A stretch of 64,000 bases of DNA. Origin: Winogradskyella helgolandensis (GTDB taxonomy: Bacteria; Bacteroidota; Bacteroidia; Flavobacteriales; Flavobacteriaceae). The notes beneath the pieces were generated by a model that saw only the letters and a program-made list of their open reading frames with translations, searched no databases and was not told the DNA's origin. A program made the position numbers and the translations under genes. Positions 38,994 to 57,373 of the stretch are shown one piece after another. The DNA lies in the NCBI RefSeq assembly GCF_013404085.1, contig NZ_JABFHO010000001.1, forward strand, positions 2,491,001-2,555,000, written 5' to 3'. Within the stretch, counting starts at the first letter, position 1. Each line of letters opens with the position of its first letter.

Positions 38994-39007
38994 GTAACAT
39001 TAGTTAC
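38994..39007. promoter_or_regulatory. GTAAC-ATTA-GTTAC operator (site A), with -7 box at 39030-39037
   Basis: The palindrome's centre lies 36.5 bp before the end of a -7-like TATTTTTA, 17 bases upstream of the ATG at 39054. The same arrangement recurs at sites B, C and D. The spacing fits an activator of the CRP/FNR family bound at about -41. Confidence 0.7.
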
Positions 39008-39053
39008 GCTATCTTATATTAATCCTTTGTATTTTTATTTAAATTTTATTGAA

Positions 39054-40079
39054 ATGAAAAATATCATAGGATTACTCGTTTTGGCTACGTTTTTTGTGAG
39101 TTGCAATTCCTCTAATAAGAAAGAAAAAAATTCTTACAGTAAGGTTGAGCATACTTCAGATAAAAGCGATCATCCTGGTAAAAAATTAATGGAAACTAAT
39201 TGTTATATCTGTCATAGTGCTACTGCTGGTCATGATGATAGAATTGGTCCACCGATGATTGCCATTAAAAGGCATTATATCAATAGTAAAACGACTAAAA
39301 AAGAATTTACTGATGCTATGCAAGCTTGGATTAAAAACCCGAATGAAGCTGATGCTAAAATGCCAGGTGCTGTAAAGCAATTTGGTGTGATGCCCATACA
39401 GCATTTCCCAGAAGAGACTATTGCGCAAATTTCGGAATATATGTTTGATTTTGAAATTGAACAGCCAGAGTGGTTTGAAAACCATTTTAATGAAGAAAGA
39501 GGGAAAGGTAAAGGAATGGGTAACGGACGAGGAATGGGAAATGGGAAAGATAAAAAACTTGGCATGAAGCAAACCCAAACTAATTTTGAAGATTTACCTT
39601 ATGGAGAGCGAGGTTTAAAATATGCCTTAACTACAAAAGCTGTTTTGGGTAAAAATTTAATGGGAACTATTCAGAAAAAAGGGGTTTTGGAAGCTTTAAA
39701 TTTTTGTAATCTACAAGCTTATCCTTTAACCGATAGTATGTCTGTTGTACACAACGCCACCATTAAACGTGTAACAGATAAACCAAGAAATCCAAATAAT
39801 AAAGCTAATACAGAAGAATTAGGATACATAAGAGACTTTAAGGAAGTTATTGCAAATAATGAAGAACCAAAACCACTAGTAAAAAAAATGGATGATAAAG
39901 TGAAAGTATATTATCCAATTACGACTAATAATATGTGTCTGCAATGTCACGGAAAACCTAATGAAACGGTAGAAGCTTCAACGCTAACAAGAATTAAGAG
40001 TTTATATCCAATGGATAAAGCTCTTGGTTACGATATTAATGAAGTTAGAGGTATTTGGAGTATTACTTTTGATAAATAA
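39054..40079 (+). CDS. Di-heme c-type cytochrome lipoprotein with DUF3365 (Tll0287-like) domain
   Basis: This 341-residue protein is exported to the cell envelope. The ATG at 39054 is chosen because it begins a lipoprotein signal (MKNIIGLLVLATFFVSC), with the lipid-bearing Cys at 17; the TTG at 39027 precedes the predicted transcription start. The first domain (about 40-135) is a small class I cytochrome c with CYICH and a later Met in KQFGVMPIQHF. A Gly/Met/Lys-rich linker follows (about 150-180, repeats of GMGNG). The C-terminal domain (about 185-341) is DUF3365-like with CLQCH. Such proteins act as electron carriers or redox/haem sensors. The gene is 14 bases upstream of thioredoxin. Confidence 0.85.
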   Translation: MKNIIGLLVLATFFVSCNSSNKKEKNSYSKVEHTSDKSDHPGKKLMETNCYICHSATAGHDDRIGPPMIAIKRHYINSKTTKKEFTDAMQAWIKNPNEADAKMPGAVKQFGVMPIQHFPEETIAQISEYMFDFEIEQPEWFENHFNEERGKGKGMGNGRGMGNGKDKKLGMKQTQTNFEDLPYGERGLKYALTTKAVLGKNLMGTIQKKGVLEALNFCNLQAYPLTDSMSVVHNATIKRVTDKPRNPNNKANTEELGYIRDFKEVIANNEEPKPLVKKMDDKVKVYYPITTNNMCLQCHGKPNETVEASTLTRIKSLYPMDKALGYDINEVRGIWSITFDK

Positions 40080-40093
40080 AATTCAAGTCAGGT

Positions 40094-40387
40094 ATGAGTA
40101 AATTTTCAGAAATAATAAATCAAGATCAACCTGTTTTGGTTGATTTTTTCGCAGATTGGTGTGGACCATGTAAAATGTTGAGTCCAATTTTAAAACAAGT
40201 GAAAGACCAATTGGGTGATGGTATTACGATTATAAAGATAGATGTTGATAAGAATCAAGCCTTAGCCTCAAAATATCAAGTGAGAGGAGTACCAACAATG
40301 CTATTGTTTAAAAAAGGAAAGCAGGTTTGGAGACAATCAGGCGTGCTTCAGGTAAATGATATTGTCAACGTGATTAACACCCACTAA
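40094..40387 (+). CDS. Thioredoxin
   Basis: This 97-residue cytoplasmic dithiol-disulfide oxidoreductase has the active site DWCGPCKML (Cys at about 24 and 27) and the conserved cis-Pro in RGVPTMLLF. There is no signal peptide. It follows the cytochrome gene by 14 bases and so shares its promoter with operator site A. It is short but complete for the family (about 100-108 residues). Pairing with a redox cytochrome suggests it is induced under a specific redox condition and is not the main housekeeping thioredoxin. Confidence 0.93.
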   Translation: MSKFSEIINQDQPVLVDFFADWCGPCKMLSPILKQVKDQLGDGITIIKIDVDKNQALASKYQVRGVPTMLLFKKGKQVWRQSGVLQVNDIVNVINTH

Positions 40388-40395
40388 TCTTATTC

Positions 40396-40445
40396 ATAAT
40401 CTCAAATAAAAATATGGACTTAATTCTATTTGAGATTATTTTTTA
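40396..40445 (+). terminator. Terminator after thioredoxin
   Basis: A 13-bp perfect stem ATAATCTCAAATA/TATTTGAGATTAT (40396-40408 and 40427-40439) is followed by a T run, starting 9 bases after the thioredoxin stop. Confidence 0.9.
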
Positions 40446-40462
40446 TACTGATAAATGTCATA

Positions 40463-40491
40463 TTTGTTTGTGAAAGCATATAGTATATTTA
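40463..40491 (+). promoter_or_regulatory. Promoter of the small membrane protein
   Basis: A -33 TTTG (40463-40466) and a -7 TATATTTA (40484-40491) are separated by 17 bases, matching the Bacteroidota sigma factor consensus. They lie 29 bases before the ATG at 40520. Confidence 0.55.
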
Positions 40492-40519
40492 CATTTTAAA
40501 AAACACTAATATTTTAAAT

Positions 40520-40708
40520 ATGATATCACAAAACATTGCATTATACAGTTGGAGTAACGGAGTAGTAATGATAGCTATTTTTGCCGTTGTATGTATTACA
40601 TTAGTAGGTATATTAATTAACTTTATGATGAGTGGTAAACCTGAAGAAGGGGCCGATACGCTTGATGCATCAAATGATATCATTAAAAATGATAGTAATG
40701 AGAATTAA
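40520..40708 (+). CDS. Small single-pass membrane protein, function unknown
   Basis: This 62-residue protein has one hydrophobic segment (about 14-37, VVMIAIFAVVCITLVGILIN) and an acidic, Asn-rich tail (about 41-62). It is flanked by its own promoter and terminator, which supports it as a real monocistronic gene. I do not recognise a family. The sequence context (cytochrome, thioredoxin, copper receptor) suggests a membrane-associated respiratory or stress role, but this is a guess. Confidence 0.65.
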   Translation: MISQNIALYSWSNGVVMIAIFAVVCITLVGILINFMMSGKPEEGADTLDASNDIIKNDSNEN

Positions 40709-40740
40709 GAAATAGTAATTAAAAACTGATAATAAATTTA

Positions 40741-40777
40741 AAAGAGGGTAGCGTATAATAAGTTACCCTCTTTTTTG
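40741..40777 (+). terminator. Terminator between small protein and TonB receptor
   Basis: A 10-bp stem AAAGAGGGTA/TACCCTCTTT (40741-40750 and 40764-40773) is followed by Ts. Its A-rich left side means it can also work for the convergent TonB-receptor gene. Confidence 0.85.
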
Positions 40778-40801
40778 TGCTCAATTTTATCTGAAGTTCA
40801 A

Positions 40802-42904
40802 TTAAAATGAATACTGTAAAAAAGCCGAAAAATTTCTACCTGGCTCTGTAATTGGTGTACTTCCAAAATCTTCTTGATTTGTAAATGAAAAATTTAAATG
40901 ATTATTATAAGCTTCATCTAAAGCATTAATAACAGCAAAACCTAAGGTGATATTTTTTATTGGTTTTAAACCTAATCTAATATCTAAAGTTTGATAGCCA
41001 TCCGTTTCTGTTTCTCCAAAACTTTCAGATATGTGGTCTTGTTTTGATGTTAAATTATACTGAATATTAGCCCAAAATTTAACTTTTTCAAAGCCAACCA
41101 CAAATCGTGTAGTAAAAGGAGGTGTCAAAGGAAGCGACTCTGCTAAATCTTTATTTTTAGCATAAACATAAGAGAACTCTGTTTTTAGAAAATAATGATC
41201 TAAAAAATCCACTTGAGCCATAGCTTCAAAACCTGTTTTATAAGCTTCATCAAGGTTTCTGAATACTTTTGGATTACTAGGTTCTGATGTTGGGTTAAAC
41301 TTTCGTGTTAAGGATTCATCTACAATACCAACAATATAATTCTCAAAGAATGAATAATAAAAAGAGGTTTCGTATTTAAAACTATTAAAGCTATTTTTTA
41401 AGGGCTCGTAACCTTTAAATCCTATTTCAAACTGATTATTAACTTCAGCTTTCAAATCTGGATTCCCAATGTACTCATAAGGATCTTGACCAACTGAGAA
41501 GTGATTAATAAAGCGTTCTATCATATTTGCAGAACGCACTCCGCGACCATATGCAGCTTCTAAAGTAAATTTATCCGAGACTCTATTTTTGATTGAAACT
41601 GTTCCGCTTACATTGTGTTCCGTGCGTTTTTCTAAGTCATACATGGCAGCAAAGTCATCTTCAGGATCTTGTATGTCAGACGTTACATTGTCGTATCTAA
41701 TTCCAGCTGTAAAAATTGTTTTAGAACTAATGCTATATTTAGCCTCTGTGTAAACACCCAAATCGGTAATATAAGAATCTTGCCAAACCTTATCATTAAA
41801 CTCCATTGGAGATGGTAAAGCGTTGCCGTTCATTATTTTTACCAAACGCGTTCTGTTACCATCTCTAGCAATATGCAGAGCATCTAAACCAGAAAAAACG
41901 TTTATTTTTTCTGAAGGTTTCCAGTTGATTTCAATTTTCCCACCCGCTGTAATCGCATCTACACCAGATGCTGCTTCCATCATCATAAAAGAAGGTCTAT
42001 TATAATTGGTCATTAAATGATCAACATAACTATAATAGGCTTTTGCGGTTAATGATTTTACGGTTTTACCAATAGCATCTAATGAATAATCTAAAGAAAT
42101 AATACTACTATCATCATATTCCGTATCCATTGGTAAAGCAGCATGTAACACATCGCGACCAAAAGATTGTCTCCAATGCGCTTGTAATCGTTGGTCGTCA
42201 GAGAAATTATAGCCTATTTTTAGACCATAATCTGTACTTCTAAAAGAGGATGGAATTTCTTTGCCATCTCCGTCTTCGTAATTTCCAAAATCTCGATAAC
42301 CAGCATTAGCAACAATATCATACTTGTCTTTAATATATTGAAGTTGTACTAAGTTAACTAACGAGTTTCCATTGCTTTCGTAGCCACCTGAAACTTTGCC
42401 GTGTAAACCATGATCTTCGTAATCTGGTTTTTGAGTCACTAAGTTTATAATACCTCCAAAAGTGGCTCCATATCTTACGGTGTATGGTCCTTTTATAATT
42501 TCTATTTTCGAAATTTCTTCAGGAATAATATGTGTTGTTATAGGATCCATGCGGTTAGGACAAGCATGCATGGCTTTTGTGCCACCATCATATTGAATAT
42601 TCAACTGTTCATATTGAGCACCTCTAAACGAAGGGTCAATTGCATAGTTTCCTCTTTTTATAACCGAAAAACCAATAATGTTATTGAATAAATCGGCAAC
42701 GTTCTTAGGTTGCACAATTTTTTCGTCATATTTATTGGAAACAACAGTTAAGACTGGGTCGGTTTTTAGATTTCCGGTAACAATAACTTCGTTCAGTTTT
42801 GTGGTTGTTTGTGTTGTAGTATCTTTTATGGTTTTTTTTTGTTCTTGACCATAAGTTATAGCTGTAATTAGAGTGCATAAAAGCACACTATAGAATGTTT
42901 TCAT
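40802..42904 (-). CDS. TonB-dependent outer-membrane receptor, OprC/NosA-like, probably for copper
   Basis: This 700-residue outer-membrane transporter has a signal peptide (1-19, ending TYGQ), a plug domain (about 35-155, with IEIIKGPYTVRYGATFGGIINL) and a 22-strand-type barrel to the terminal Phe. Two motifs are the strongest clue. CPNRM (Cys115, Met119) lies in the plug and HLM (His296, Met298) in the barrel. Pseudomonas OprC binds copper with CxxxM (143, 147) and HxM (323, 325). The separations are 177 residues here and 176 in OprC. Copper import is therefore a good inference. The gene lies behind a small Cys-rich protein on the same strand. Confidence 0.87.
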   Translation of the reverse strand: MKTFYSVLLCTLITAITYGQEQKKTIKDTTTQTTTKLNEVIVTGNLKTDPVLTVVSNKYDEKIVQPKNVADLFNNIIGFSVIKRGNYAIDPSFRGAQYEQLNIQYDGGTKAMHACPNRMDPITTHIIPEEISKIEIIKGPYTVRYGATFGGIINLVTQKPDYEDHGLHGKVSGGYESNGNSLVNLVQLQYIKDKYDIVANAGYRDFGNYEDGDGKEIPSSFRSTDYGLKIGYNFSDDQRLQAHWRQSFGRDVLHAALPMDTEYDDSSIISLDYSLDAIGKTVKSLTAKAYYSYVDHLMTNYNRPSFMMMEAASGVDAITAGGKIEINWKPSEKINVFSGLDALHIARDGNRTRLVKIMNGNALPSPMEFNDKVWQDSYITDLGVYTEAKYSISSKTIFTAGIRYDNVTSDIQDPEDDFAAMYDLEKRTEHNVSGTVSIKNRVSDKFTLEAAYGRGVRSANMIERFINHFSVGQDPYEYIGNPDLKAEVNNQFEIGFKGYEPLKNSFNSFKYETSFYYSFFENYIVGIVDESLTRKFNPTSEPSNPKVFRNLDEAYKTGFEAMAQVDFLDHYFLKTEFSYVYAKNKDLAESLPLTPPFTTRFVVGFEKVKFWANIQYNLTSKQDHISESFGETETDGYQTLDIRLGLKPIKNITLGFAVINALDEAYNNHLNFSFTNQEDFGSTPITEPGRNFSAFLQYSF

Positions 42905-42937
42905 AGTAGAGTTATATTTATTTAATTCAAATAATTG

Positions 42938-42955
42938 TGATAGTAATTGCTATCA
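42938..42955. promoter_or_regulatory. 18-bp near-perfect palindrome before the TonB receptor
   Basis: TGATAGTAATTGCTATCA has 6-bp arms TGATAG/CTATCA and an internal AATT. It lies 34 bases upstream of the TonB-receptor start and after the stop of the small Cys-containing gene. It could be an operator for metal-dependent control. No regulator is encoded beside it. Confidence 0.4.
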
Positions 42956-42968
42956 AATAAGTAAAGGA

Positions 42969-43349
42969 TTATACTTTAGGAGGATGAAAACAGTAGTTCG
43001 AATTATTAAAACTATATAAATTAAGGTAATAGGATGTAGTGAGAGAGTTTCTAGCTAAAGTGCCTTGAGTTAATTGAAATGAAGTATTAGGACATGGGTA
43101 CAAAATAAGGTCTTTAAAATCAATTATGCTTGTTGGTATATTTTGATTACTGCTTTGGGATTCTGCAACCTTCATTAATTGGCATTTCCCATTACACTCC
43201 AATTCGGGTTTGTCTTTGTTCTCACATAGATTTTCTACAAATCCTATGGGATCTAAGATGTAATATGCATAAGTCAACGAAGTTTTGGTACTATTGAAAA
43301 TAATCAATAATAACAAGAGTAGTACAAAAACGGGTTGGCGTATCTTCAT
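42969..43349 (-). CDS. Small exported Cys-containing protein paired with the copper-type receptor
   Basis: This 126-residue protein has an N-terminal signal or membrane anchor (8-28, very Leu-rich). It is followed by ENLCENKDKPELECNGKCQL, containing three Cys, and another Cys at about 90. The end carries CFHPPKV. The pattern NKDKPxLxCNGKCxLxK is one I recall from short Bacteroidota proteins encoded next to TonB receptors, without assigned function. The position immediately upstream of the OprC-like receptor suggests metal (copper) binding in the periplasm. This is an inference from Cys content and context. Confidence 0.65.
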   Translation of the reverse strand: MKIRQPVFVLLLLLLIIFNSTKTSLTYAYYILDPIGFVENLCENKDKPELECNGKCQLMKVAESQSSNQNIPTSIIDFKDLILYPCPNTSFQLTQGTLARNSLTTSYYLNLYSFNNSNYCFHPPKV

Positions 43350-43468
43350 TTAGAAATTATGGAATAGCTTCTTAATTATTGAACTGATCTGAATCATTGC
43401 CTACAATTATTATAGAAACTAATTTTAGTGTCTAATATCAAAGTTCACAATAAAAAATTCTTGATTGG

Positions 43469-43482
43469 GTAACTTTAGTTAC
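43469..43482. promoter_or_regulatory. GTAAC-TTTA-GTTAC operator (site B), with -7 box at 43505-43512
   Basis: A perfect 5+5 palindrome has its centre 36.5 bp before the end of TATATTTG, a perfect -7 match. The peroxiredoxin ATG is at 43542. The divergent Cys-rich gene starts 120 bases to the left and could also be affected. Confidence 0.75.
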
Positions 43483-43541
43483 ATAGCTAAAAACTATTAC
43501 AAACTATATTTGTCATAAATTAATTAAATACTTAAAAAATC

Positions 43542-44264
43542 ATGAATACATTAGAAACAACACCACAAGAAACATTTGCAATGCCAAGAATTGGAGATAA
43601 AGCACCAGAATTTAAAGCCGTAACTACGCAAGGAGATATTAATTATCCTTCAGATTATAAGGGAAAATGGTCAATACTATTTAGTCATCCAGCAGATTTT
43701 ACACCAGTTTGTACTTCTGAATTTATGACATTTGCGCATTTAGAAGAAAAATTTGAAAAAGCAAATTGTAGTCTTATTGGTTTATCTATTGATGGTCTTT
43801 ATAGCCATATCGCATGGTTAAGAACTATTAAAGATAAGATTGAGTTTAACGGTATGAAAAACATAGAAGTTAAGTTTCCTTTAATTGAGGATATTTCTAT
43901 GGAAGTGGCTAAGAAATATGGAATGATTCAACCCGGAGAAAGCAAAACACAAGCGGTTAGAGCGGTCTTTTTTGTTGATCCTAATGAAACAGTAAGAGCA
44001 ATTATTTATTACCCATTAAGCTTAGGACGTAATTTTGATGAGTTATACAGAGCTTTAATTGCTATGCAAACTTCAGATAAATTTAACGTAGCCACTCCAG
44101 CAGATTGGAATCCTGGTGATGATGTTATTGTGTCTCCAGCAGGATCATGTGGTGTAGCCGAAGAACGCATGACTTCTACTGAAGATTTAGATTGTAAAGA
44201 CTGGTTCTTCTGTACTAAGAAGCTTGATAAAGATTTAGTGTTGAACGAAATCCTAAAGAAGTAA
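43542..44264 (+). CDS. Peroxiredoxin, Prx6/archaeal thioredoxin-peroxidase type
   Basis: This 240-residue cytoplasmic peroxidase reduces H2O2 and organic peroxides. The peroxidatic Cys57 is in FTPVCTSEF. The C-terminal extension has Cys203 and DCKDWFFC (Cys218, Cys224). The pair spaced by six residues resembles that of Aeropyrum thioredoxin peroxidase (207 and 213), so it may use a resolving Cys and thioredoxin despite its 1-Cys-like core. It is monocistronic with its own terminator, and its promoter carries operator site B. Confidence 0.92.
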   Translation: MNTLETTPQETFAMPRIGDKAPEFKAVTTQGDINYPSDYKGKWSILFSHPADFTPVCTSEFMTFAHLEEKFEKANCSLIGLSIDGLYSHIAWLRTIKDKIEFNGMKNIEVKFPLIEDISMEVAKKYGMIQPGESKTQAVRAVFFVDPNETVRAIIYYPLSLGRNFDELYRALIAMQTSDKFNVATPADWNPGDDVIVSPAGSCGVAEERMTSTEDLDCKDWFFCTKKLDKDLVLNEILKK

Positions 44265-44333
44265 ATACGTCTTTACGTGAAGATAATTTCCTTGTTTAAG
44301 TAAATTAATAAGTAAAATAATCTAATCTAAATT

Positions 44334-44368
44334 TCGGTCTTAATTTTTAGTTGAGACCGATTTTTTTT
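44334..44368 (+). terminator. Terminator after peroxiredoxin
   Basis: A 7-bp stem TCGGTCT/AGACCGA (44334-44340 and 44354-44360), extended by three further pairs, is followed by eight Ts. Confidence 0.88.
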
Positions 44369-44401
44369 ATCTTTTAAGAGGAATTAAAACGCATTAAAAT
44401 C

Positions 44402-45745
44402 ATGAACATTATACAATTTGAAGATAAGCCATTGGCACATTATTCTTATGCAATTATAAGTAATGATGAAATGGCTATTGTCGATCCTTCTCGAGATCCA
44501 AAGCCCTATTATCAGTTAGCCGAAAAACATAACGCAAAAATAATCGCCGTTTTTGAAACCCATCCTCATGCCGATTTTGTAAGTGGCCATTTGCAGATTC
44601 ATAATGAGACTGGAGCTAAAATTTATGTCAGTAAATTGGTTGGGGCAAACTATATGCATGAGACTTTTGATGATGGAGATACCGTTAAAATAGGAGAGGT
44701 TACTTGTTCTGCAATTAACTCGCCAGGTCACTCACCAGATAGTATTACTATTATTGCTGAAGATGCATATAAAAATTATGCGATGTTTTCGGGAGATACC
44801 CTATTTATTGGAGATGTCGGACGACCAGACTTAAGAGAGCAAGCTGGTAACATGAAAGCTAAACGCGAAGAATTAGCTAAAAGCATGTATCACACTATTA
44901 CGCATAAATTTAATCATTTGCCAGATGCTACACTAGTATATCCAGCGCATGGAGCAGGTTCTTTATGTGGCAAAAACATGAGTAAAGATGCTTCTAGTAC
45001 ATTAGGAAAAGAAAGAAATGAAAACTGGGCGTTTAAGGATTTATCTGAAGACCAATTTGTAGCTCATATTTTAAAAGATCAACCTTTTATTCCGTCTTAT
45101 TTTGGATTTAATGTGGATATTAATAAAGATGGATCAGAGAACTTTCAATTGTGTATTGCAATACCTACATTTCAATTTCAGATTGTTGATTTTTTTAATG
45201 ATGGTGCATTAATTGTGGATACGAGAAGTAAAGCGGATTTTGATACCAATCATATACCTAAGAGTATTAATATAATTGCAGAAACTGAGGATGATAAATT
45301 TGAAACATGGTTAGGCTCAATTGTAAAACCAAATGAAGCCTTTTATTTAGTGATAAAGTCCATTGAAGATAGAGATAAAATACTATATCGAATTGCTAAA
45401 ATAGGTTATGAAAAACAATTAATAGGATTAATGACTCTAGGTGAAACTAATTTTGAAGGCGTAGAAGTTCTTAATTTTAATGATTTTGAAAACCATCAAG
45501 ATAAGTACACCATTATTGATGTTAGAAATAAAAGTGAAGTTGAGGAAGGCAAAATATTTCAAAATGCAATAGCTATTCCACTTCATCAATTAAGAGATGC
45601 TGAAGATGAAATTCCTACGGACAAACCCATTGTAGTGCATTGCGCTGGTGGGTATAGAAGTGCAGCTGGTAGTAGTATTATTTCAAATATTACAAACAAG
45701 TTTACTGTGTTCGATTTAAGTGATGATGTAACTAAATTTCAATAA
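44402..45745 (+). CDS. Persulfide dioxygenase-like MBL-fold enzyme fused to two rhodanese domains
   Basis: This 447-residue cytoplasmic enzyme has an N-terminal metallo-beta-lactamase domain (1-about 250). Its motif is THPHADFVSGH (His54, His56, Asp58, His63), with SGDTLFIGDVGRPDL further on and a later His in YPAHGAGS, as in ETHE1/Blh-type persulfide dioxygenases. Two rhodanese domains follow. The first (about 260-355) lacks the active Cys. The second (about 360-447) has CAGGYRS (Cys414). Such fusions oxidise glutathione or protein persulfides and move sulfane sulfur. Together with the SQR at 57.4 kb it would complete sulfide oxidation. It heads a three-gene operon. Confidence 0.88.
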   Translation: MNIIQFEDKPLAHYSYAIISNDEMAIVDPSRDPKPYYQLAEKHNAKIIAVFETHPHADFVSGHLQIHNETGAKIYVSKLVGANYMHETFDDGDTVKIGEVTCSAINSPGHSPDSITIIAEDAYKNYAMFSGDTLFIGDVGRPDLREQAGNMKAKREELAKSMYHTITHKFNHLPDATLVYPAHGAGSLCGKNMSKDASSTLGKERNENWAFKDLSEDQFVAHILKDQPFIPSYFGFNVDINKDGSENFQLCIAIPTFQFQIVDFFNDGALIVDTRSKADFDTNHIPKSINIIAETEDDKFETWLGSIVKPNEAFYLVIKSIEDRDKILYRIAKIGYEKQLIGLMTLGETNFEGVEVLNFNDFENHQDKYTIIDVRNKSEVEEGKIFQNAIAIPLHQLRDAEDEIPTDKPIVVHCAGGYRSAAGSSIISNITNKFTVFDLSDDVTKFQ

Positions 45746-46887: not shown

Positions 46888-46901
46888 GTAACTAATGTAA
46901 C
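46888..46901. promoter_or_regulatory. GTAAC-TAAT-GTAAC operator (site C), with -7 box at 46923-46930
   Basis: This site has one mismatch from the palindrome (right arm GTAAC). Its centre lies 35.5 bp before the end of TAAATTTG, a perfect -7 match. The cydA ATG is 20 bases further on. The arrangement equals sites A, B and D to within one base. Confidence 0.68.
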
Positions 46902-46950
46902 ATAGCAACCATGTAAAAAAGCTAAATTTGTAATATCCAAAATAACACCT

Positions 46951-48282
46951 ATGGAAGACATGATTTTTTATGATAGATTGCAATTTGCATTTACTATCAC
47001 ATTTCACTACATATTTCCACAATTAACCATGGGATTATCTTTAATGATAGTCTATTTTAAGTGGAAATTCCTCAGAACTCAAATTGAAAAGTATAATAAT
47101 GCCGCAAAGTTTTTTATGAAAATCTTTGCCATTAACTTTACCATGGGAGTGGTAACAGGGATTCCAATGGAATTTCAATTTGGTACTAATTGGGCAAAGT
47201 TTTCTGAACTCACCGGCGGAATTATTGGTCAGACCTTAGCCATGGAAGGCATGTTCTCATTCTTTTTAGAATCTTCATTTTTAGCCTTATTTATATTTGG
47301 TGAAAAATTAATGGGGCAAAAGCTTCATTTTTTAACTGGTTTTCTGGTGTTTTTGGGGTCTTGGGCAAGTGGTTGGTTTATTTTAGCTACCAATGCATGG
47401 ATGCAAAATCCTGTAGGTCATGAAATTTTAGAGAACGGAAAATTTGTATTAGAAAACTTCTCGGAACTTTTCACAAATCCATGGCTATTGCCAGCCTTTT
47501 TACACAATCAAATGGCATCAGTGGTGACGTCTGCTTTTGTGGTGGCAAGTATAGGTGCGTTTTATATTTTAAGAGATAAGCATTCAGAATACGGAAGACT
47601 GTTTCTAAAAACAGGTGTGATATTCGGATTAATATCTAGTGTATTAGTCGCGTTTCCAACAGGAGATTGGAATGCTAAAAATGTCGCAAAATACCAGCCA
47701 GGAACATTTGCTGCTATGGAAGGTATATTTGAAACCGAAGATGCTGGTGCCGAAATCGTACTTATTGGTCAACCTAATATGGTGGACAAAAAACTAGATA
47801 ACAAAATTGCCGTTCCTAATATATTAAGCTTTTTAACCTACCAAGAATGGGATAAACAAATCCCTGGAATGGATCAATTTGAAGAAGATGAATTGCCAGA
47901 TAATATTCCTGCGCTTTATTATTCCTATCATATTATGGTCGGTTTAGGAACTATATTTATTGGCGTTATGGCATTAGCACTGTTCTTTTTGTGGCGAAAA
48001 AAATTATACACTATAAAACCATTACTTTGGACGATTATGTTTCTGGTTCCATTTCCATATATCGCAAATATTACGGGTTGGTACACCGCAGAATTAGGAA
48101 GACAACCCTATTTAGTTTATGGTTTATTAAGAACAAGCGATGGTATTTCACCTACGGTTTCATCGGGTAATACTTTATTTACTTTACTTGGTTTTGTTGC
48201 TTTGTACATGCTTCTAGGCTTGTTGTTTTTAGTTCTAGTTGGTAAAACTATTAACCAAGGTCCAACGCCTCAAAAACATTAA
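46951..48282 (+). CDS. cydA: Cytochrome bd ubiquinol/menaquinol oxidase subunit I
   Basis: This 443-residue inner-membrane subunit holds haems b558, b595 and d. Family features are YDRLQFAFTITFHYIFPQ (His ligand), the segment FFLESSFLALFIFGE, and GWYTAELGRQPYLVYGLLRT. It is clearly shorter than the E. coli protein (522), with the loss mainly in the quinol loop (after about residue 240), so it belongs to the short-Q-loop type. The operon continues with cydB after 2 bases. Cytochrome bd resists sulfide and reduces O2 at low concentration, which fits the sulfide-oxidation genes nearby. Confidence 0.95.
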   Translation: MEDMIFYDRLQFAFTITFHYIFPQLTMGLSLMIVYFKWKFLRTQIEKYNNAAKFFMKIFAINFTMGVVTGIPMEFQFGTNWAKFSELTGGIIGQTLAMEGMFSFFLESSFLALFIFGEKLMGQKLHFLTGFLVFLGSWASGWFILATNAWMQNPVGHEILENGKFVLENFSELFTNPWLLPAFLHNQMASVVTSAFVVASIGAFYILRDKHSEYGRLFLKTGVIFGLISSVLVAFPTGDWNAKNVAKYQPGTFAAMEGIFETEDAGAEIVLIGQPNMVDKKLDNKIAVPNILSFLTYQEWDKQIPGMDQFEEDELPDNIPALYYSYHIMVGLGTIFIGVMALALFFLWRKKLYTIKPLLWTIMFLVPFPYIANITGWYTAELGRQPYLVYGLLRTSDGISPTVSSGNTLFTLLGFVALYMLLGLLFLVLVGKTINQGPTPQKH

Positions 48283-48284: not shown

Positions 48285-49358
48285 ATGGAAATATTTTGGT
48301 ACATAGCAATAGGAATTGTTCTAACAGTGTTTTTTATTTTAGACGGTTACGATTTTGGAGCAGGAATCATTCATTTGTTTTTTGCGAAGGAAGAAAAGGA
48401 CAAAGAAGTCATTACTAAATCGGCAGGCTTGTTTTGGGATTCAAATGAAGTTTGGTTAGTCGCAGCAGGAGGGATGCTCTTTATGGCGTTTCCAACATTT
48501 TATGCCTCAGTTTTTAGTGGATTTTATTTACCATTAATAATTGTGTTGTGGTTAATTATTTTTAGAGCCATCGGATTAGAATTTAGAGGGCAATTCAAAT
48601 ATCAAATGTGGAAAGATATTTGGGATAAATCTTTTGGTGTTTCTAGTTTGTTGTTAGCGTTATTTTTTGGAATAGCTTTAGGTAATATTGTTAGAGGTGT
48701 AAATTTAGGAAGTGTTGAAAACGGAGTTTCTGCTCATGAAGGTCATTATTTTTTCTTACCGTTATGGGATAGTAGCTTTAGTCCATTAACAGATCATCCT
48801 GGAGTTATTGATTGGTTTACTATAATAATAGGCTTAATAGCAGTGGTTACTTTAGCAATTCATGGTGCCAATTGGATTATTTTAAAAACCAATTCAACAA
48901 TAAATAACAAGCTAAAGGGCGTTATTTTTAAATTAAATATTGCTTTGGCAATCCTTACAATTTTCTCTTTAATTGTATGGCAATACGTCAATCCAAATTC
49001 ATTAGATAATTTTATTCATAAGCCTTATTTATTGATCTTTCCTATTATTTATTTAACAGGATTAATTGGGTTGTTTTTTATTAAGAAAATCAAAAAAGAT
49101 AGTCATGCTTTTGTGTTGTCAAGCTTGCTTATTTTAGGTGGAATTACATCCTCACTAGCATCTTTATTTCCAGTAATATTACCTTCAATAAATGATAAGC
49201 ATGAGCATTTAACTATTTATAATACGTCTGCAGCAGAATATGGTTTATCTGTTGCGTTAACATGGGGAATTATTGGGTTTGCCTTAATTGTTGTTTATTT
49301 CATTATTCAAAAAAGATTGTTGAGCGGGAAAATTGATAACATGGATTATGGCCATTAG
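48285..49358 (+). CDS. cydB: Cytochrome bd oxidase subunit II
   Basis: This 357-residue protein has about eight to nine membrane helices. Characteristic stretches are FFILDGYDFGAGI at the N-terminus, FWDSNEVWLVAAGGMLFMAF and LIIFRAIGLEFRGQ. A central segment (HEGHYFFLPLWDSSFSP, at about 148) is charged and lies between helices. It starts 2 bases after cydA and is followed 15 bases later by a small membrane gene. Length and motifs are typical of the family, and I see nothing missing. Confidence 0.95.
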   Translation: MEIFWYIAIGIVLTVFFILDGYDFGAGIIHLFFAKEEKDKEVITKSAGLFWDSNEVWLVAAGGMLFMAFPTFYASVFSGFYLPLIIVLWLIIFRAIGLEFRGQFKYQMWKDIWDKSFGVSSLLLALFFGIALGNIVRGVNLGSVENGVSAHEGHYFFLPLWDSSFSPLTDHPGVIDWFTIIIGLIAVVTLAIHGANWIILKTNSTINNKLKGVIFKLNIALAILTIFSLIVWQYVNPNSLDNFIHKPYLLIFPIIYLTGLIGLFFIKKIKKDSHAFVLSSLLILGGITSSLASLFPVILPSINDKHEHLTIYNTSAAEYGLSVALTWGIIGFALIVVYFIIQKRLLSGKIDNMDYGH

Positions 49359-51617: not shown

Positions 51618-51618
51618 A

Positions 51619-51655
51619 ATCTGCGAACATTTGTGGAATTTGCGGGAGAAAATAA
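51619..51655. repeat. CTGCG-type intergenic repeat, copy 1
   Basis: The sequence between TolC and HlyD genes reads CTGCGAACATTTGTGGAAT then TTGCGGGAGAAAATAA. A similar stretch occurs at 54780-54817 in the same operon (CTGCGAGTATCTGCGTAAT then ATGCGGGAAACAAATAA). A GTG at 51633 inside it opens the ORF, but the adaptor's lipoprotein signal begins later, so the repeat is probably noncoding. Confidence 0.55.
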
Positions 51656-51662
51656 GAGAGAA

Positions 51663-52568: not shown

Positions 52569-52580
52569 AAACAAAATATT

Positions 52581-53039
52581 ATGGATAAGCATAATTACAA
52601 CGTAGATATTAATTGGACACAAGATAGAAAAGGAACCATGTGTTCACCAGAATTGAAAAATAATGAAACGCAAGAATCAAATTGTGTAGAAGTGGCAACA
52701 CCACCAGAATTTCTAGGTGGAATGCCAAATATTTGGACACCAGAACATTTATTTACAGCAGCTGTAAGTAGTTGCTTAATGACAACATTTTTAGCGATTG
52801 CTGAATATTCAAAATTAGAATTCGTAAGTTTTAAATGTGGTTCTAAGGGCATACTAGAAAAAGTAGATGGGAAGTTCGTAATGAGTGAAGTGTTGTTGTT
52901 TCCTGAAGTTGTAATTACAGATGAATCCAAAAGAGAACGTACAGAACGGATTATTGAAAAGGCAGAAAAAGCCTGTTTAATTTCAAATTCCATTACGTCA
53001 AAAATAACAATGGAAACTAAAATCGTAGTTGAAAACTAA
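52581..53039 (+). CDS. OsmC/Ohr-family protein within the efflux operon
   Basis: This 152-residue cytoplasmic protein carries the OsmC-family peroxidatic pattern, with Cys in AVSSCLMTTFLAIAEYS (about 70) and a second Cys in KAEKACLISNSI (about 130). Such proteins reduce organic hydroperoxides by a thiol mechanism. It is 12 bases after the adaptor and 6 before the first ATPase. A detoxification enzyme inside a pump operon suggests the substrate is an electrophile or an oxidised compound. The enzymatic activity is inferred from the family. Confidence 0.87.
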   Translation: MDKHNYNVDINWTQDRKGTMCSPELKNNETQESNCVEVATPPEFLGGMPNIWTPEHLFTAAVSSCLMTTFLAIAEYSKLEFVSFKCGSKGILEKVDGKFVMSEVLLFPEVVITDESKRERTERIIEKAEKACLISNSITSKITMETKIVVEN

Positions 53040-53045
53040 AGTGTA

Positions 53046-53948
53046 ATGAGTATTTCCGTTAGCCACGTTAGTAAATCTTACAGAAAAGTAAAAGCCTTAC
53101 AAGACATTTCTTTTGACGTAAAATCGAATGAGCTTTTTGGACTTATTGGACCTGACGGTGCAGGTAAAACAACCTTGTTTCGAGTATTAACAACTTTATT
53201 GTTTCCAGATGAAGGAACTGCTACGGTTACTGGATTTGATGTCGTTAGTGATTATAAAAAGATTAGAGATAGTGTGGGTTATATGCCTGGGAAATTTTCA
53301 CTCTACCAAGATTTAACTGTTGAAGAAAATCTAGACTTTTTTGCCACCATATTCGGAACGACTATTGAAGAAAACTACGATTTAATAAAAGATATTTATG
53401 TTCAAATAGAACCTTTTAAAGATAGAAGAGCAGGAAAATTATCTGGTGGAATGAAGCAAAAACTCGCTTTGTGTTGCGCCTTAATCCACAAACCTAAAGT
53501 CTTGTTTTTAGATGAGCCAACTACAGGAGTTGACCCAGTATCACGAAAAGAATTCTGGGAAATGCTTAAACGCTTACAACAAAAAAACATTACTATTTTG
53601 GTGTCAACCCCTTATATGGACGAAGCTGCTTTGTGTGATAGAATTGCATTAATTCAAGATGGTAAAATCCTAGAAATTGATACACCAGAAGCGATTGTAA
53701 AACATTACCCAAAACAGATTTATAATGTCAGAGCGCATAATATGTATCAACTCATTAACGCTTTAAATGCCTATGAATATAACCATAGTGTTTATCCTTT
53801 TGGAGAGTCTGTACATTACACAGATAGTAGACCAGATTTTAATCCCGAAGATTTAAAAGTGTATTTAGAAGTTAAAAATTTATCAAACATTCATATTGAT
53901 AAAACAGTAGCAACCATTGAAGATACGTTTATGGAATTAGCGAAGTAA
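53046..53948 (+). CDS. ABC transporter ATPase (first nucleotide-binding domain, YbhF N-half type)
   Basis: This 300-residue cytoplasmic ATPase has Walker A GPDGAGKT (about 36-43), signature LSGGMKQKLAL (about 131) and Walker B VLFLDEPTTGVDP (about 155). The C-terminal 80 residues are an extra domain (YNVRAHNMYQLINALNAYEY), typical of ABC-2 export ATPases. In E. coli YbhF this domain and the next are one protein; here they are two genes. It starts 6 bases after OsmC. Confidence 0.92.
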   Translation: MSISVSHVSKSYRKVKALQDISFDVKSNELFGLIGPDGAGKTTLFRVLTTLLFPDEGTATVTGFDVVSDYKKIRDSVGYMPGKFSLYQDLTVEENLDFFATIFGTTIEENYDLIKDIYVQIEPFKDRRAGKLSGGMKQKLALCCALIHKPKVLFLDEPTTGVDPVSRKEFWEMLKRLQQKNITILVSTPYMDEAALCDRIALIQDGKILEIDTPEAIVKHYPKQIYNVRAHNMYQLINALNAYEYNHSVYPFGESVHYTDSRPDFNPEDLKVYLEVKNLSNIHIDKTVATIEDTFMELAK

Positions 53949-53982
53949 AAGTCAAAACCTTATAAGTATAAAAACAAAAAGA

Positions 53983-54000
53983 TTCCCACTTTTTTGGGAA
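53983..54000 (+). repeat. Small hairpin just before an ABC ATPase start
   Basis: The 6-bp stem TTCCCA/TGGGAA with a CTTTTT loop sits 6 bases before the ATG at 54007. It belongs with the similar hairpins at 54857 and 56075: a short stem with a small loop, placed immediately before a start codon. Confidence 0.5.
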
Positions 54001-54006
54001 CTAAAA

Positions 54007-54735
54007 ATGGAAAACAACAACGTCATACAAGTAGATCAATTAACCAAAATGTTCGGAGATTTTGCAGCTGTAAATGCGATTACATTTCACGTTGAAAAAG
54101 GCGAAATTTTTGGATTCTTAGGTGCTAATGGAGCAGGGAAAACCACAGCGATGAAGATGCTCATTGGTATTTCTAATCCAACTTCAGGAAAAGCAAATGT
54201 TGCCGGTTTTGATGTTTTTACTCATGCAGAAGACATTAAAAAAAACATTGGTTATATGAGTCAGAAATTTGCGCTGTATGACGATTTAACCGTTAAAGAA
54301 AATATTACATTTTTTGGTGGTATTTATGGGTTGTCTAGAATACGAATCAAAGAAAAATCTACAGTTTTAATAGAAGAATTAGGCTTAGAGGAAGTTGCAA
54401 ACAAGTTAGTGGGAGCATTGCCATTAGGTTGGAAACAAAAGTTATCCTTTTCAGTTGCTTTGCTTCACGACCCAAAAATTGTGTTTTTAGATGAGCCAAC
54501 AGGAGGCGTAGATCCCATAACCAGACGTCAGTTTTGGGAAATGATTTATAAAGCTTCACATAATGGAACAACGGTATTTGTAACTACACATTATATGGAT
54601 GAAGCCGAATATTGCGATAGGGTTTCCATCATGGTCAACGGAAAAATTGAAGCTTTAGACACACCAAAGAAACTGAAAGAACAGTTTAAAGTCGATAATA
54701 TGAATGATGTATTTTTAAAATTGGCTAGAGGATGA
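54007..54735 (+). CDS. ABC transporter ATPase (second nucleotide-binding domain, degenerate signature)
   Basis: This 242-residue ATPase has Walker A GANGAGKT (about 35-42) and Walker B IVFLDEPTGGVDP (about 158). The signature motif is changed from LSGGQ to LPLGWKQKLSF, as in the C-half of YbhF. This suggests one asymmetric pair of ATP sites with the preceding ATPase. A conserved His follows Walker B (FVTTHYMDEAEYCDR). It is 58 bases from the first ATPase gene, and 146 bases of repeats separate it from the permease. Confidence 0.92.
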   Translation: MENNNVIQVDQLTKMFGDFAAVNAITFHVEKGEIFGFLGANGAGKTTAMKMLIGISNPTSGKANVAGFDVFTHAEDIKKNIGYMSQKFALYDDLTVKENITFFGGIYGLSRIRIKEKSTVLIEELGLEEVANKLVGALPLGWKQKLSFSVALLHDPKIVFLDEPTGGVDPITRRQFWEMIYKASHNGTTVFVTTHYMDEAEYCDRVSIMVNGKIEALDTPKKLKEQFKVDNMNDVFLKLARG

Positions 54736-54779
54736 AAAAGAGTTTTCAGTCGCAGCCTCATTTTAAAGAATTTAAAGAA

Positions 54780-54817
54780 TCTGCGAGTATCTGCGTAATA
54801 TGCGGGAAACAAATAAC
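54780..54817. repeat. CTGCG-type intergenic repeat, copy 2
   Basis: CTGCGAGTATCTGCGTAAT followed by ATGCGGGAAACAAATAA resembles copy 1 at 51619-51655. It lies in the 146-bp gap between the second ATPase and the first permease. Confidence 0.55.
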
Positions 54818-54856
54818 GATAATCTACCAGAGATAACAAGTATTAACAATTAAAAG

Positions 54857-54876
54857 ATTCCTGCTTTCGCAGGAAT
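54857..54876 (+). repeat. ATTCCTGC/GCAGGAAT hairpin before the first permease
   Basis: A perfect 8-bp stem with a TTTC loop ends 5 bases before the ATG at 54882. The right arm contains AGGAA, a purine-rich sequence close to where a ribosome-binding site would be. It has the same core as the hairpin at 56075. Confidence 0.65.
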
Positions 54877-54881
54877 ATAGG

Positions 54882-55988
54882 ATGAAAAGATTCATAGGCT
54901 TTATAAAAAAAGAATTCTACCATATTTTCAGAGATAGACGCTCATTGTTTATCCTTTTCGGTATGCCTATTGCTCAAATAATGCTCTTCGGTTTCGCCAT
55001 TACCAACGAAATTAATAATGTCGATATTGCCATTTTAGACCATTCAAAAGATACTACAACCGAAGAAATTATTAATAAAATTTCAGCTTCTAAATATTTC
55101 AGCATAAAACAAATGATAACCCGTGAAGCAGATATTGCTGCGGTTTTTCAAAAAGGACATGTAAAAGCCGTTTTAAATTTCGAAAAAGATTTTAGTAAAA
55201 ACTTAATTAAGGACAATAAAGCAACGATTCAAATTATTACTGATGCTACAGACCCAAATACTGCAAATACTATAAGTAATTATGTGAATGCAATTCTTCA
55301 GCAATATCAAAAAGAATTGAATAAAGACATCACGATTGCTTATCAAATTATACCACAAACACGGATGGTTTACAATCCAGAATTAAAAAGCGTATACATG
55401 TTTGTTCCTGGAGTGATGACGATTATTTTAATGTTGGTTTCAGCAATGATGACCTCTATCTCTATAACTAGAGAAAAAGAATTGGGAACTATGGAAATCC
55501 TTTTGGTGTCGCCAATTAAACCAATTCAAGTTATAGTCGGTAAAGTGTTTCCGTATATTTTTCTGTCTATAATTAATGCTGTAGTTATTGTCTTGTTAAG
55601 CATTTTTATTTTTAAAATGCCCGTTCAAGGGAGTCTCTTTTTATTGGGATTTGAAAGTGTTTTATTCATAATTACATCCTTGGCTTTAGGTATTTTAATT
55701 TCAACGATTTCAGCAACGCAACAAACAGCGATGATGATTTCGTTAATGGGTTTAATGCTTCCTGTGATTTTACTATCAGGTTTTATTTTTCCAATTTCAA
55801 GTATGCCTTTACCATTGCAAATGATAAGTAATATCATTCCTGCCAAATGGTTTATTATTATCATTAAAGGTATTATGCTCAAAGGTGTAGGATTACAATA
55901 TCTATGGAAAGAGACCTTGATTTTAATAGGAATGACCATCTTCTTTATTGGTCTAAGTGTGAAGAAATATAAAATTAGATTGGAGTGA
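54882..55988 (+). CDS. ABC-2 type permease, first of pair
   Basis: This 368-residue inner-membrane permease has one N-terminal membrane helix (about 20-41, SLFILFGMPIAQIMLFGFAI), a large periplasmic domain (about 45-165) and five C-terminal helices (about 170-360). The C-terminal core has the ABC-2 pattern ITREKELGTMEILLVSPIKP and LSGFIFPISSMPLPLQ. This matches YbhS/YbhR-type permeases. The next permease is its paralogue, and the two form a heterodimer channel with the two ATPases. Confidence 0.92.
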   Translation: MKRFIGFIKKEFYHIFRDRRSLFILFGMPIAQIMLFGFAITNEINNVDIAILDHSKDTTTEEIINKISASKYFSIKQMITREADIAAVFQKGHVKAVLNFEKDFSKNLIKDNKATIQIITDATDPNTANTISNYVNAILQQYQKELNKDITIAYQIIPQTRMVYNPELKSVYMFVPGVMTIILMLVSAMMTSISITREKELGTMEILLVSPIKPIQVIVGKVFPYIFLSIINAVVIVLLSIFIFKMPVQGSLFLLGFESVLFIITSLALGILISTISATQQTAMMISLMGLMLPVILLSGFIFPISSMPLPLQMISNIIPAKWFIIIIKGIMLKGVGLQYLWKETLILIGMTIFFIGLSVKKYKIRLE

Positions 55989-56074
55989 GAAAGCATTTAA
56001 TCTTTCAATAAGTAATGGATAGACAAAGAATAAAATATTAAAAAAAATTGAGCTAAGCAATTTAATAAAACAGA

Positions 56075-56092
56075 TTCCTGCCTACGCAGGAA
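56075..56092 (+). repeat. TTCCTGC/GCAGGAA hairpin before the second permease
   Basis: A 7-bp perfect stem with a CTAC loop ends 5 bases before the ATG at 56098, again with AGGAAG just before the start. Core and position match the hairpin at 54857. Confidence 0.65.
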
Positions 56093-56097
56093 GTAAT

Positions 56098-57219
56098 ATG
56101 AAAACAATTCTATACATCATACAAAAAGAGTTTAAACAAATCTTTAGAAATAAAGGGATGCTTCCTATAATTTTTGTTTTACCAATATTGCAACTCGTTA
56201 TTTTATCTAATGCAGCCACTTTCGAAGTCAAGAACATTAAATTCGGTTATATTGATAATGATCATACGTCAACGTCACGAGCATTAGTTGAAAAATTTAA
56301 TGCTTCAACCTATTTTAATGTATTAACGGATTTCCCTTCGGAAGCATTAGCTAGTTCCGAAATGTTAAAAGGAAATATTGATGTCATATTAGAAATTCCT
56401 CACTATTTTGAACGCGATTTACAAAAGGAAAAATACAATAGTTTAGGAGTTACGATTAATGCTATTGATGGAGCAGCGGCAGGAGTTGAAAATGTATATG
56501 TAACTCAAATCATCCAACGTTTTAATCAAAATTTAAAAATCGATTTATTACAAGTTTCCGATAAACAAATTCAACCTATCACAATTGAAACAATTCCACT
56601 TTTCTGGTATAACGAAACCTTAAATTATAAAACCTTTATGGTTCCGGGAATATTGGTCTTATTAGTAACTATGATAACATTATTCCTGTCAGGAATGAAT
56701 ATCGTACGTGAAAAAGAAATAGGTACTTTAGAGCAAATCAACGTCACGCCAATTAAAAAAAGTCAATTTATTATTGGAAAACTTTTTCCATTTTGGGTTA
56801 TTGGAATGGGTTTATTAACCGTTGGTTTAATTTTAGCAAAAGTCATATTCAATGTGCCAATGGTTGGGAGTTTGGCGCTTATGTATTTTTATACATCTAT
56901 TTATATTTTGGTGGTTTTGGGTATTGGTTTATTCATATCCAACTTTACAGATACACAACAACAAGCTATGTTTATTTCATGGTTTTTTGTCGTTATTTTT
57001 ATTTTAATGAGTGGCTTATTCACACCAATAGAAAGCATGCCAAAATGGGCTCAAATTGTTACAGAATTCAATCCAGTAAAGTATTTTGTAGAAGTGATGC
57101 GGATGGTAATGCTAAAAGGTTCTGGTTTCAACGATATACTTCCTCAGCTTTTAAAAACGGCACTTTATGCTTTTGTTATGAATGGTTTAGCAGTGTGGAG
57201 TTATAAGAAAATCAATTAA
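56098..57219 (+). CDS. ABC-2 type permease, second of pair
   Basis: This 373-residue inner-membrane permease has the same layout as the first: an N-terminal helix (about 20-40), a periplasmic domain (about 45-170) and five C-terminal helices. It has VREKEIGTLEQINVTPIKKS and LMSGLFTPIESMPKWAQ. A long periplasmic domain is typical of pumps coupled to HlyD adaptors. It is the last gene of the efflux operon. A 154-bp gap holding operator site D precedes the SQR gene. Confidence 0.92.
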   Translation: MKTILYIIQKEFKQIFRNKGMLPIIFVLPILQLVILSNAATFEVKNIKFGYIDNDHTSTSRALVEKFNASTYFNVLTDFPSEALASSEMLKGNIDVILEIPHYFERDLQKEKYNSLGVTINAIDGAAAGVENVYVTQIIQRFNQNLKIDLLQVSDKQIQPITIETIPLFWYNETLNYKTFMVPGILVLLVTMITLFLSGMNIVREKEIGTLEQINVTPIKKSQFIIGKLFPFWVIGMGLLTVGLILAKVIFNVPMVGSLALMYFYTSIYILVVLGIGLFISNFTDTQQQAMFISWFFVVIFILMSGLFTPIESMPKWAQIVTEFNPVKYFVEVMRMVMLKGSGFNDILPQLLKTALYAFVMNGLAVWSYKKIN

Positions 57220-57228
57220 AAGGTTTGT

Positions 57229-57242
57229 GTAACAATAGTTAC
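57229..57242. promoter_or_regulatory. GTAAC-AATA-GTTAC operator (site D), with -7-like box at 57265-57272
   Basis: A perfect palindrome has its centre 36.5 bp before the end of AACCTTTG (one mismatch from TAnnTTTG). Leader length to the SQR ATG at 57374 is about 98 bases. Spacing matches sites A, B and C. Confidence 0.7.
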
Positions 57243-57373
57243 GGTTTAGTTTAATCTAAATGACAACCTTTGTTGTGTAATCTAGGCTTTATAGTACTTT
57301 TTTATTCGTACTGATGTACATCATTTTATAGCCTATTTTCTTAAACTAAATTTACTATAACAAAACATAAGTA

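Follow-up and report, generated by a model that had tools for sequence, protein, structure and literature searches.

The four sites raising the question of this study lie in a 64,000-nucleotide stretch of the Winogradskyella helgolandensis genome (contig NZ_JABFHO010000001.1, positions 2,491,001 to 2,555,000; hereafter the window), where the palindrome GTAAC-N4-GTTAC recurs in promoters of respiratory, thiol-redox and sulfur-handling genes. Which regulator acts through this palindrome, and on what signal? A first-pass annotation had placed the sites at 38994, 43469, 46888 and 57229 and left the regulator unnamed. From sequence comparisons, we proposed that one CRP/FNR activator would control a sulfide/persulfide response through these sites in Winogradskyella and other Bacteroidota, and we assign this reading a probability of roughly 0.75.

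Promoter Geometry of the Four Sites

All four sites were recovered at these positions, three as exact palindromes and the one at 46888 with one mismatch (table 1). Measured as the number of bases from the palindrome to a TAnnTTTG-like -7 box, the gaps were 22, 22, 21 and 22, which reproduced the centre-to-box-end distances of 36.5, 36.5, 35.5 and 36.5 bp given in the annotation. In 100 sequences simulated by a Markov model of the window, exact palindromes averaged 0.02, compared with three in the window itself, and 0/100 simulations reached three. Palindrome counts alone prove nothing, because a looser scan of the window with two mismatches allowed showed no enrichment (25 found vs. 23.9 expected), and the bare exact palindrome showed no excess in the 4.6-Mb genome (9 vs. 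8 of the reversed control per strand); the two-mismatch scan was abandoned, and exact sites plus spacing were used instead. Six of the nine exact palindromes of the genome had a TAnnTTTG box (0-1 mismatch) at gap 22, namely those at 38994, 43469 and 57229 in the window and those at L018:2606, L018:3417 and C1:1597187 (minus strand); the three unboxed ones comprised two within large open reading frames (ORFs) and one downstream of an ORF read by eye as a sigma factor. With up to three mismatches allowed, the composite of palindrome and box was at background level genome-wide (84 found vs. 116 in the control), and seven of the eight two-mismatch matches lay inside ORFs of at least 80 amino acids (aa); composite genome matches were interpreted at 0-1 mismatch only.

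The spacing was computed across 60 genomes, 37 of them from the same genus with our own included, by scanning for GTAAC-N4-GTTAC followed by TAnnTTTG at gaps of 8-38; 58 of the 78 listed matches were at gap 22, and the next commonest gap had 5 matches. In 40 loci of a phylum-wide draw (gaps 0-49 scanned), 14/14 exact combinations were at gap 22. A chance or generic promoter feature would agree with the lack of genome-wide enrichment of the bare palindrome and of the loose composite, but it would account neither for this spacing nor for the excess of exact palindromes in the window, and in relatives the sites precede orthologous genes. We consider its probability negligible, in accordance with the earlier judgement that chance was unlikely over four unrelated genes.

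In Flavobacterium psychrophilum, the sigma-A box TAnnTTTG spans -12 to -5 (PMC9723704). With this transcription start site offset, borrowed from another flavobacterium, gap 22 would place the palindrome at -48 to -35 and its centre at -41.5, which supports the class II position near -41 that had been suggested. A logo of 114 gap-22 sites exceeded 0.35 bit only at -48 to -35 and at -12 to -5, besides a weak A/T preference, and its box signal arose partly by selection because the box was chosen at 0-1 mismatch. Since no position from -34 to -13 exceeded this level, a -33 element was not visible, as expected of class II activator-dependent promoters. These results confirmed that the four sites represent a real operator with a fixed class II geometry. 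We proposed that a regulator dimer would bind the palindrome at -48 to -35 and recruit RNA polymerase, in the class II manner, to promoters having the TAnnTTTG box and no visible -33 element. Because a box stands at gap 22 on either strand (43439-43482), operator 2 may drive both the peroxiredoxin unit and the divergent unit of a 126-aa ORF and a TonB-dependent receptor; the divergent layout is also seen in relatives, and L094 and L095 have boxes facing both ways.

A Candidate Regulator outside the Window

The statement that no CRP/FNR regulator is encoded in the window was borne out by an HTH_Crp_2 search, which found no match there and five Crp/Fnr proteins above the cut-off in the genome. 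Our candidate is a 211-aa protein at C1:4299384-4300016 (locus L027), 1.74 Mb past the window; it matched PF13545 over the cut-off, with PF00027 listed, showed a fold match to CRP and NtcA, and belongs to the CRP/FNR superfamily by its cyclic nucleotide-binding-like domain and HTH_Crp domain. The idea of a CRP/FNR-family class II operator stood, and the regulator left unnamed has a better candidate. Downstream of its gene are two Sulf_transp/DUF6691 genes, a TauE gene and a metallo-beta-lactamase plus rhodanese gene. The recognition helices of the five proteins were aligned by eye, with CRP positions 180/181/185 taken after PMC1274295: three read Thr-Glu...Arg (FNR-like), L026 reads Arg-Pro...Ile and the candidate Arg-Val...Arg, so that Arg at the CRP-180 place is confined to the candidate and L026. 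Exact sites at gap 22 occurred in 26 of the 32 congeners with an ortholog of the candidate versus 0 of the 5 without it (Fisher p-value 0.001, which is generous because the genomes are related and two of the five regulator-less ones are less than 90% complete).

An HcpR2-type control by L026, responsive to nitric oxide (NO), would suit the operator, which is identical to the HcpR2 consensus, as well as the Arg-Pro pair, Pro181 being an HcpR2 determinant (PMC1274295), and bd oxidase, which can resist NO going by the title of a cited reference. However, the orthologs of L026 did not track the sites, which were present in 18 of 27 congeners with L026 and in 8 of 10 without; by eye, L026 has Ile, not Arg, at position 185; no site at one mismatch or fewer lies in the surrounding 7.5 kb; and hcp, which the first-pass annotation had advised looking for, was absent from 37/37 congeners. 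L026 was rejected on these grounds, and we regard this control as very unlikely. Among the 23 genomes from outside the genus, two (L217 and L218) had hcp, and no exact palindrome stood at the hcp locus of either. FNR-type oxygen control, by L023 or by the response-regulator fusions L024 and L025, would be in keeping with the respiratory targets and with the class II position, which is usual for FNR. However, the Thr-Glu...Arg helices of L023-L025 are expected, by a rule given in PMC1274295, to read another half-site than GTAAC; these proteins were rejected on the recognition helix only, and control by them appears extremely improbable. The candidate itself does not have the N-terminal Fe-S cysteines of the FNR type. 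In sum, the HcpR, NO and FNR readings are not supported: of the resemblance to FNR/HcpR-type sites that had been pointed out, the identity with the HcpR2 consensus held and the regulatory reading did not.

Sites beside the Regulator Gene

The 80 best matches to the regulator (80 named loci, 1.47 Mb; a non-random sample) contained 49 exact palindromes versus 6 of the reversed control. With an exact box, 19 were at gap 22, 3 at gap 21 and at most one at any other gap from 0 to 49, and 26/80 loci had a site whose box, at gap 21-23, showed no more than one mismatch. The sites were concentrated around the regulator gene, with 16/42 within 500 bp, a stretch equal to 8.8% of the DNA, and 32/42 within 2 kb. 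Among the frequent positions, the site stood directly after the regulator stop codon and before YeeE or TauE in Seonamhaeicola, Galbibacter, Christiangramia, Robertkochia, Altibacter and a Cyclobacteriaceae metagenome-assembled genome, directly after the stop codon and before cytochrome c and thioredoxin in Polaribacter, and directly upstream of the regulator gene in Flavobacterium cauense and Flavobacterium limnosediminis. Nearly all Winogradskyella regulator loci among the 80 were without an exact site, L153 being the one that has it. In the congener L102, a second regulator copy lies in a cluster with sites before the copy and before rhodanese-cytochrome c-thioredoxin genes. We fetched the regulator loci of 30 of the 32 congener orthologs; at the regulator stop codon, before the sulfur-transport operon, 18/30 carried a site that departed from the palindrome at one or two bases and had its box at gap 21-22. 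In our own genome, this operator has decayed and the box TATTTTTG remains; the fetched 7-kb locus of our own regulator had no boxed site, and its autoregulation was rejected.

Covariation of Residue 184 with the Half-Site

A phylum-wide search of 296 genomes gave 101 with a match, and 60 loci were fetched from the matches listed; half-sites were read as the third base of GTxAC, with a box of 0-1 mismatch at gap 22. At residue 184, 30 loci had a Val regulator, 28 a Glu regulator and 2 both kinds; among close relatives of the candidate, this residue was Val in 82/83 and Glu in 1/83. The Val loci had 21 A-A, 4 A-T and 1 C-G sites, whereas the Glu loci had 2 G-G, 7 A-G, 2 G-A and no A-A sites. Counted by locus, A-A sites occurred in 19/30 Val versus 0/28 Glu loci, and sites with a GTGAC half in 1/30 versus 10/28. 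Both site types were present in the mixed loci L220 and L238, which have one regulator of each kind: the end of the Glu regulator was followed after 10 bp by a GTGAC site, and GTAAC sites stood at 74-436 bp from its Val counterpart; L220 also had one in front of YeeE, 0.4 kb beyond the Glu gene. We proposed that the recognition helix would set the half-site, Arg183-Val184...Arg188 reading GTAAC and Glu184 relatives reading at least one GTGAC half. Taken together, co-occurrence, co-localisation and recognition-residue covariation identified the regulator with good confidence; it would be expected to bind the operator, and presumably to activate rather than repress.

Hybrid GTAAC-N4-GTCAC sites, in which the half nearer the promoter is the GTGAC one, constituted 7 of the 11 gap-22 sites of Glu loci and were found near the Glu184-type regulators of L250, L254, L255, L261, L265, L269 and L278.

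Regulon in Relatives

The congener sample comprised our own stretch plus 19 from congeners (22 sequences in all), the latter selected because they hold or adjoin sites. A site-strand was counted wherever an exact palindrome had, at gap 21-23 on that strand, a box with no more than one mismatch, and the next gene was recorded. Here, 67 exact palindromes gave 63 site-strands, followed by TolC (18), peroxiredoxin (10), sulfide:quinone oxidoreductase (SQR)-like (8), small rhodanese (7; 112-124 aa, five of them labelled via their best match, the large rhodanese protein), cytochrome c (4), TauE (3), orf126 (3), DUF2202 (2), and DUF4405, CydA, NAPRT and the regulator (1 each), with 3 others and 1 without an ORF start in range. 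In the 80 named loci, the 49 palindromes gave 43 site-strands, led by the full-length metallo-beta-lactamase plus rhodanese gene (11, of 469-491 aa, plus 1 of a "second kind") and followed by YeeE (5), the regulator (4), TauE (4), cytochrome c, SQR and TolC (3 each), while the remaining 9 had another gene or no ORF start. Large rhodanese-type genes also led in the 60-locus phylum draw, with 9 of 26 site-strands from 27 palindromes (8 of at least 463 aa, one of 291), followed by the regulator and YeeE (3 each), SQR, TolC and thioredoxin (2 each); the remaining 5 had another gene or no ORF start. Across genera, the neighbours of the regulator included persulfide-dioxygenase-like, rhodanese, YeeE-type sulfur transport, TauE, SulP and SQR genes. 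Thus, sulfide/persulfide genes were found both as targets and as neighbours, and other kinds of targets occurred as well.

Separately, in the congener stretch L090:9745-12791, an operator with a perfect box precedes a gene set with a 552-aa protein, whose best match was the thiosulfohydrolase SoxB at 258 bits versus a cut-off of 550.

In our own genome, the putative target units would be cytochrome c with thioredoxin, peroxiredoxin (with the persulfide-dioxygenase-like gene), cytochrome bd and SQR, and further ones would be a TolC/HlyD/RND exporter, a stand-alone rhodanese and a thioredoxin-like gene. Thioredoxin and peroxiredoxin are named as able to reduce the persulfide modification in a review (PMC9774590), whose references include papers on bd oxidase with sulfide-resistant respiration in their titles. 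Together with SQR and persulfide dioxygenase, these three products fit a reactive-sulfur set, and a sulfide/persulfide response is likely. Among the signals that the first-pass annotation had listed, sulfide and peroxide were supported; low oxygen or NO was not supported as the likely signal.

A Predicted Cysteine Sensor

The only cysteines of the candidate are 78, 84 and 85. In its close relatives, Cys78 and Cys84 were present in 83/83 and Cys85 in 80/83; among the regulators of the phylum draw, Cys78 was present in 62/62 and Cys84 in 49/62. None of the genome's remaining four Crp/Fnr proteins had a Cys-x5-Cys in the matching segment (L023 has one elsewhere). An AlphaFold model of the single chain was CRP-like (mean predicted local distance difference test score 85.7, predicted template modelling score 0.62) and put the cysteines, at low confidence, in a loop and short helix between strands 66-72 and 94-97, a segment that we take to occupy the place of the phosphate-binding cassette in CRP. 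No distance was read from the model because residues 81-90 were weakly predicted (mean 56), and most Foldseek superpositions of the model had a root-mean-square deviation above 12. From the neighbours, the targets and the cysteines, we infer that persulfide is the signal: Cys78-x5-Cys84 would acquire sulfane sulfur and thereby turn the dimer active. The wider proposal, that a cyclic-nucleotide pocket turned into a sulfane-sulfur sensor and that the Val/Glu-recoded activator runs sulfide defence and oxidation in Bacteroidota, seems to us evenly poised between true and false.

The same regulator might respond to another signal, such as oxygen, thiol-oxidising stress, sulfite/thiosulfate, copper, or a bound metal or heme, with the sulfur genes as one consequence. 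The bd oxidase, peroxiredoxin and thioredoxin also suit redox stress, the divergent TonB receptor is similar, below the cut-off, to copper receptors, a metal could be bound by Cys78 and Cys84-85, and Cys84 was missing in 13/62 regulators of the draw. However, the sulfur-handling neighbours of the regulator across genera speak against this reading, and we consider another signal unlikely.

Several observations weigh against a single persulfide-responsive activator acting through this operator. Six of the 32 congeners with the regulator were without an exact site plus exact box, incomplete genomes are among the five regulator-less congeners, and 54/80 named loci showed no boxed site. In our own genome, the regulator is unlinked and shows no visible autoregulation, because the adjoining operator has decayed. 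Among the sampled congeners, the exporter was the most frequent target, and the names DUF4405, DUF2202 and TonB receptor do not denote sulfur genes. Nine of the 13 draw regulators missing Cys84 were of the Val type, and in two of the Val-type regulators without it, L258 and L272, an A-A site was still near; thus, the cysteine pair is not needed for the operator. As for the recognition code, 11/30 Val loci had no A-A site at gap 22 and 18/28 Glu loci no G-half site; as exceptions, L106 combines Glu with an A-A site and a G-A site, and Val goes with A-A sites plus one GTGAC-half site in each of L179, L102 and L231. Because of shared ancestry, the covariation rests on few independent switches: the tree contained one supported independent Val/Glu pair, in the predicted direction, and two when all branches were counted.

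Genes behind the Sites

By the names of its closest proteins, with 96% identity to a W. thalassocola entry, the genome belongs to Winogradskyella or stands very near it. The unit names given in the first-pass annotation (cytochrome c/thioredoxin, peroxiredoxin, cytochrome bd, SQR) fit the Pfam, NCBIfam and phmmer matches (table 1). The cytochrome c ORF as listed starts at TTG 39027, inside the promoter, and ATG 39054 is the likelier start. The 126-aa ORF had no match in Pfam or NCBIfam, and every NCBIfam match of the SQR-like flavoprotein was below the cut-off. A persulfide-dioxygenase-like function of the 44402..45745 product is suggested by its domain pair.

Just past the window end, L018:2606 and L018:3417 are exact palindromes with a perfect box at gap 22; separated by 0.8 kb, these operators lie upstream of a DUF4405 gene and a set of TolC-HlyD-RND exporter genes (L018:2606-4784). 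The operator at C1:1597187 precedes a rhodanese gene 0.93 Mb from operator 1, and a one-mismatch site at C1:511608, with a perfect box at gap 22, precedes a thioredoxin-family gene.

On the other side of operator 1, positions 22011-38976 of the window hold ORFs of 2249, 1340 and 1308 aa followed by a thioesterase and a phosphopantetheinyl transferase, possibly a polyketide/fatty-acid-type cluster ending at operator 1.

Table 1. Operators, -7 boxes and adjoining genes (window positions).
Feature	Position	Strand	Details
Operator 1	38994..39007	+	exact GTAAC-N4-GTTAC, GTAACATTAGTTAC
-7 box of operator 1	39030..39037	+	TATTTTTA, 1 mismatch, gap 22
Cytochrome c / Tll0287-like protein	39054..40079	+	Pfam PF11845, PF00034
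Thioredoxin, one unit with cytochrome c gene	40094..40387	+	Pfam PF00085
TonB-dependent receptor, divergent from operator 2	40802..42904	-	best NCBIfam match a copper receptor family, below cut-off
126-aa ORF, first gene of divergent unit	42969..43349	-	adjoins the site in relatives too
-7 box of operator 2, minus side	43439..43446	-	GAACTTTG, 1 mismatch, gap 22
Operator 2	43469..43482	either	exact, GTAACTTTAGTTAC; may serve both directions
-7 box of operator 2, plus side	43505..43512	+	TATATTTG, perfect, gap 22
Peroxiredoxin	43542..44264	+	Pfam PF00578; NCBIfam NF009668 above cut-off
Metallo-beta-lactamase-fold plus rhodanese protein, putatively persulfide-dioxygenase-like	44402..45745	+	Pfam PF00753, PF00581
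Operator 3	46888..46901	+	one mismatch, GTAACTAATGTAAC
-7 box of operator 3	46923..46930	+	TAAATTTG, perfect, gap 21
Cytochrome bd oxidase subunit I	46951..48282	+	Pfam PF01654
Cytochrome bd oxidase subunit II	48285..49358	+	Pfam PF02322
Operator 4	57229..57242	+	exact, GTAACAATAGTTAC
-7 box of operator 4	57265..57272	+	AACCTTTG, 1 mismatch, gap 22
SQR-like flavoprotein	57374..58831	+	phmmer vs. solved sulfide-quinone reductases, best E 4.7e-33

Comparison with Known Systems

In marine and freshwater communities, flavobacteria are a major component (PMC9723704). In the open-access literature, we found no described regulator of flavobacterial sulfide- or persulfide-handling genes (subscription papers were mostly outside this scope). 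For the sampled flavobacteria with such genes, our analysis names a candidate regulator, an operator, a promoter geometry and targets, and the Val/Glu switch offers a natural test set for the CRP/FNR recognition code.

The closest operator is that of the HcpR2 regulon, whose consensus GTAACnnnnGTTAC is identical and whose regulator is also of the CRP/FNR family (Rodionov et al. 2005; PMC1274295). According to the same source, most HcpR2 members have Pro at CRP position 181 and hcp as the core target; the candidate, in contrast, has Val at that place, no hcp, sulfur-handling targets and a cysteine pair. HcpR of Porphyromonas gingivalis senses NO by heme, with Met68 (PMC12750200). Our results warn that a GTAAC-N4-GTTAC site alone does not imply HcpR and NO.

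The best solved match to the candidate was PDB 3dv8, a Crp/Fnr protein of Eubacterium rectale, which has the same Cys-x5-Cys at the aligned place but differs in its Arg-Glu helix, in the absence of Cys85 and in that its function is not named. Because this protein carries the motif, the sensor type may extend beyond Bacteroidota. NtcA recognizes a GTA-N8-TAC palindrome in the class II position and serves 2-oxoglutarate/nitrogen control, unlike the role proposed here. It shares the Arg-Val...Arg helix in the alignment and is among the nearest solved structures (PDB 2xgx, 3la2), but the candidate scored 50.3 bits versus the NCBIfam NtcA cut-off of 244.95.

The predicted mode of sensing resembles that of CstR, SqrR/BigR and FisR, which combine thiol-based sensing of reactive sulfur with control of sulfide-handling genes (PMC9774590). 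These belong to the CsoR, ArsR and Fis families, and none of those named in the consulted passages of the review is a CRP/FNR protein; if our proposal is true, the CRP/FNR family would be an addition to the persulfide-sensor families described there.

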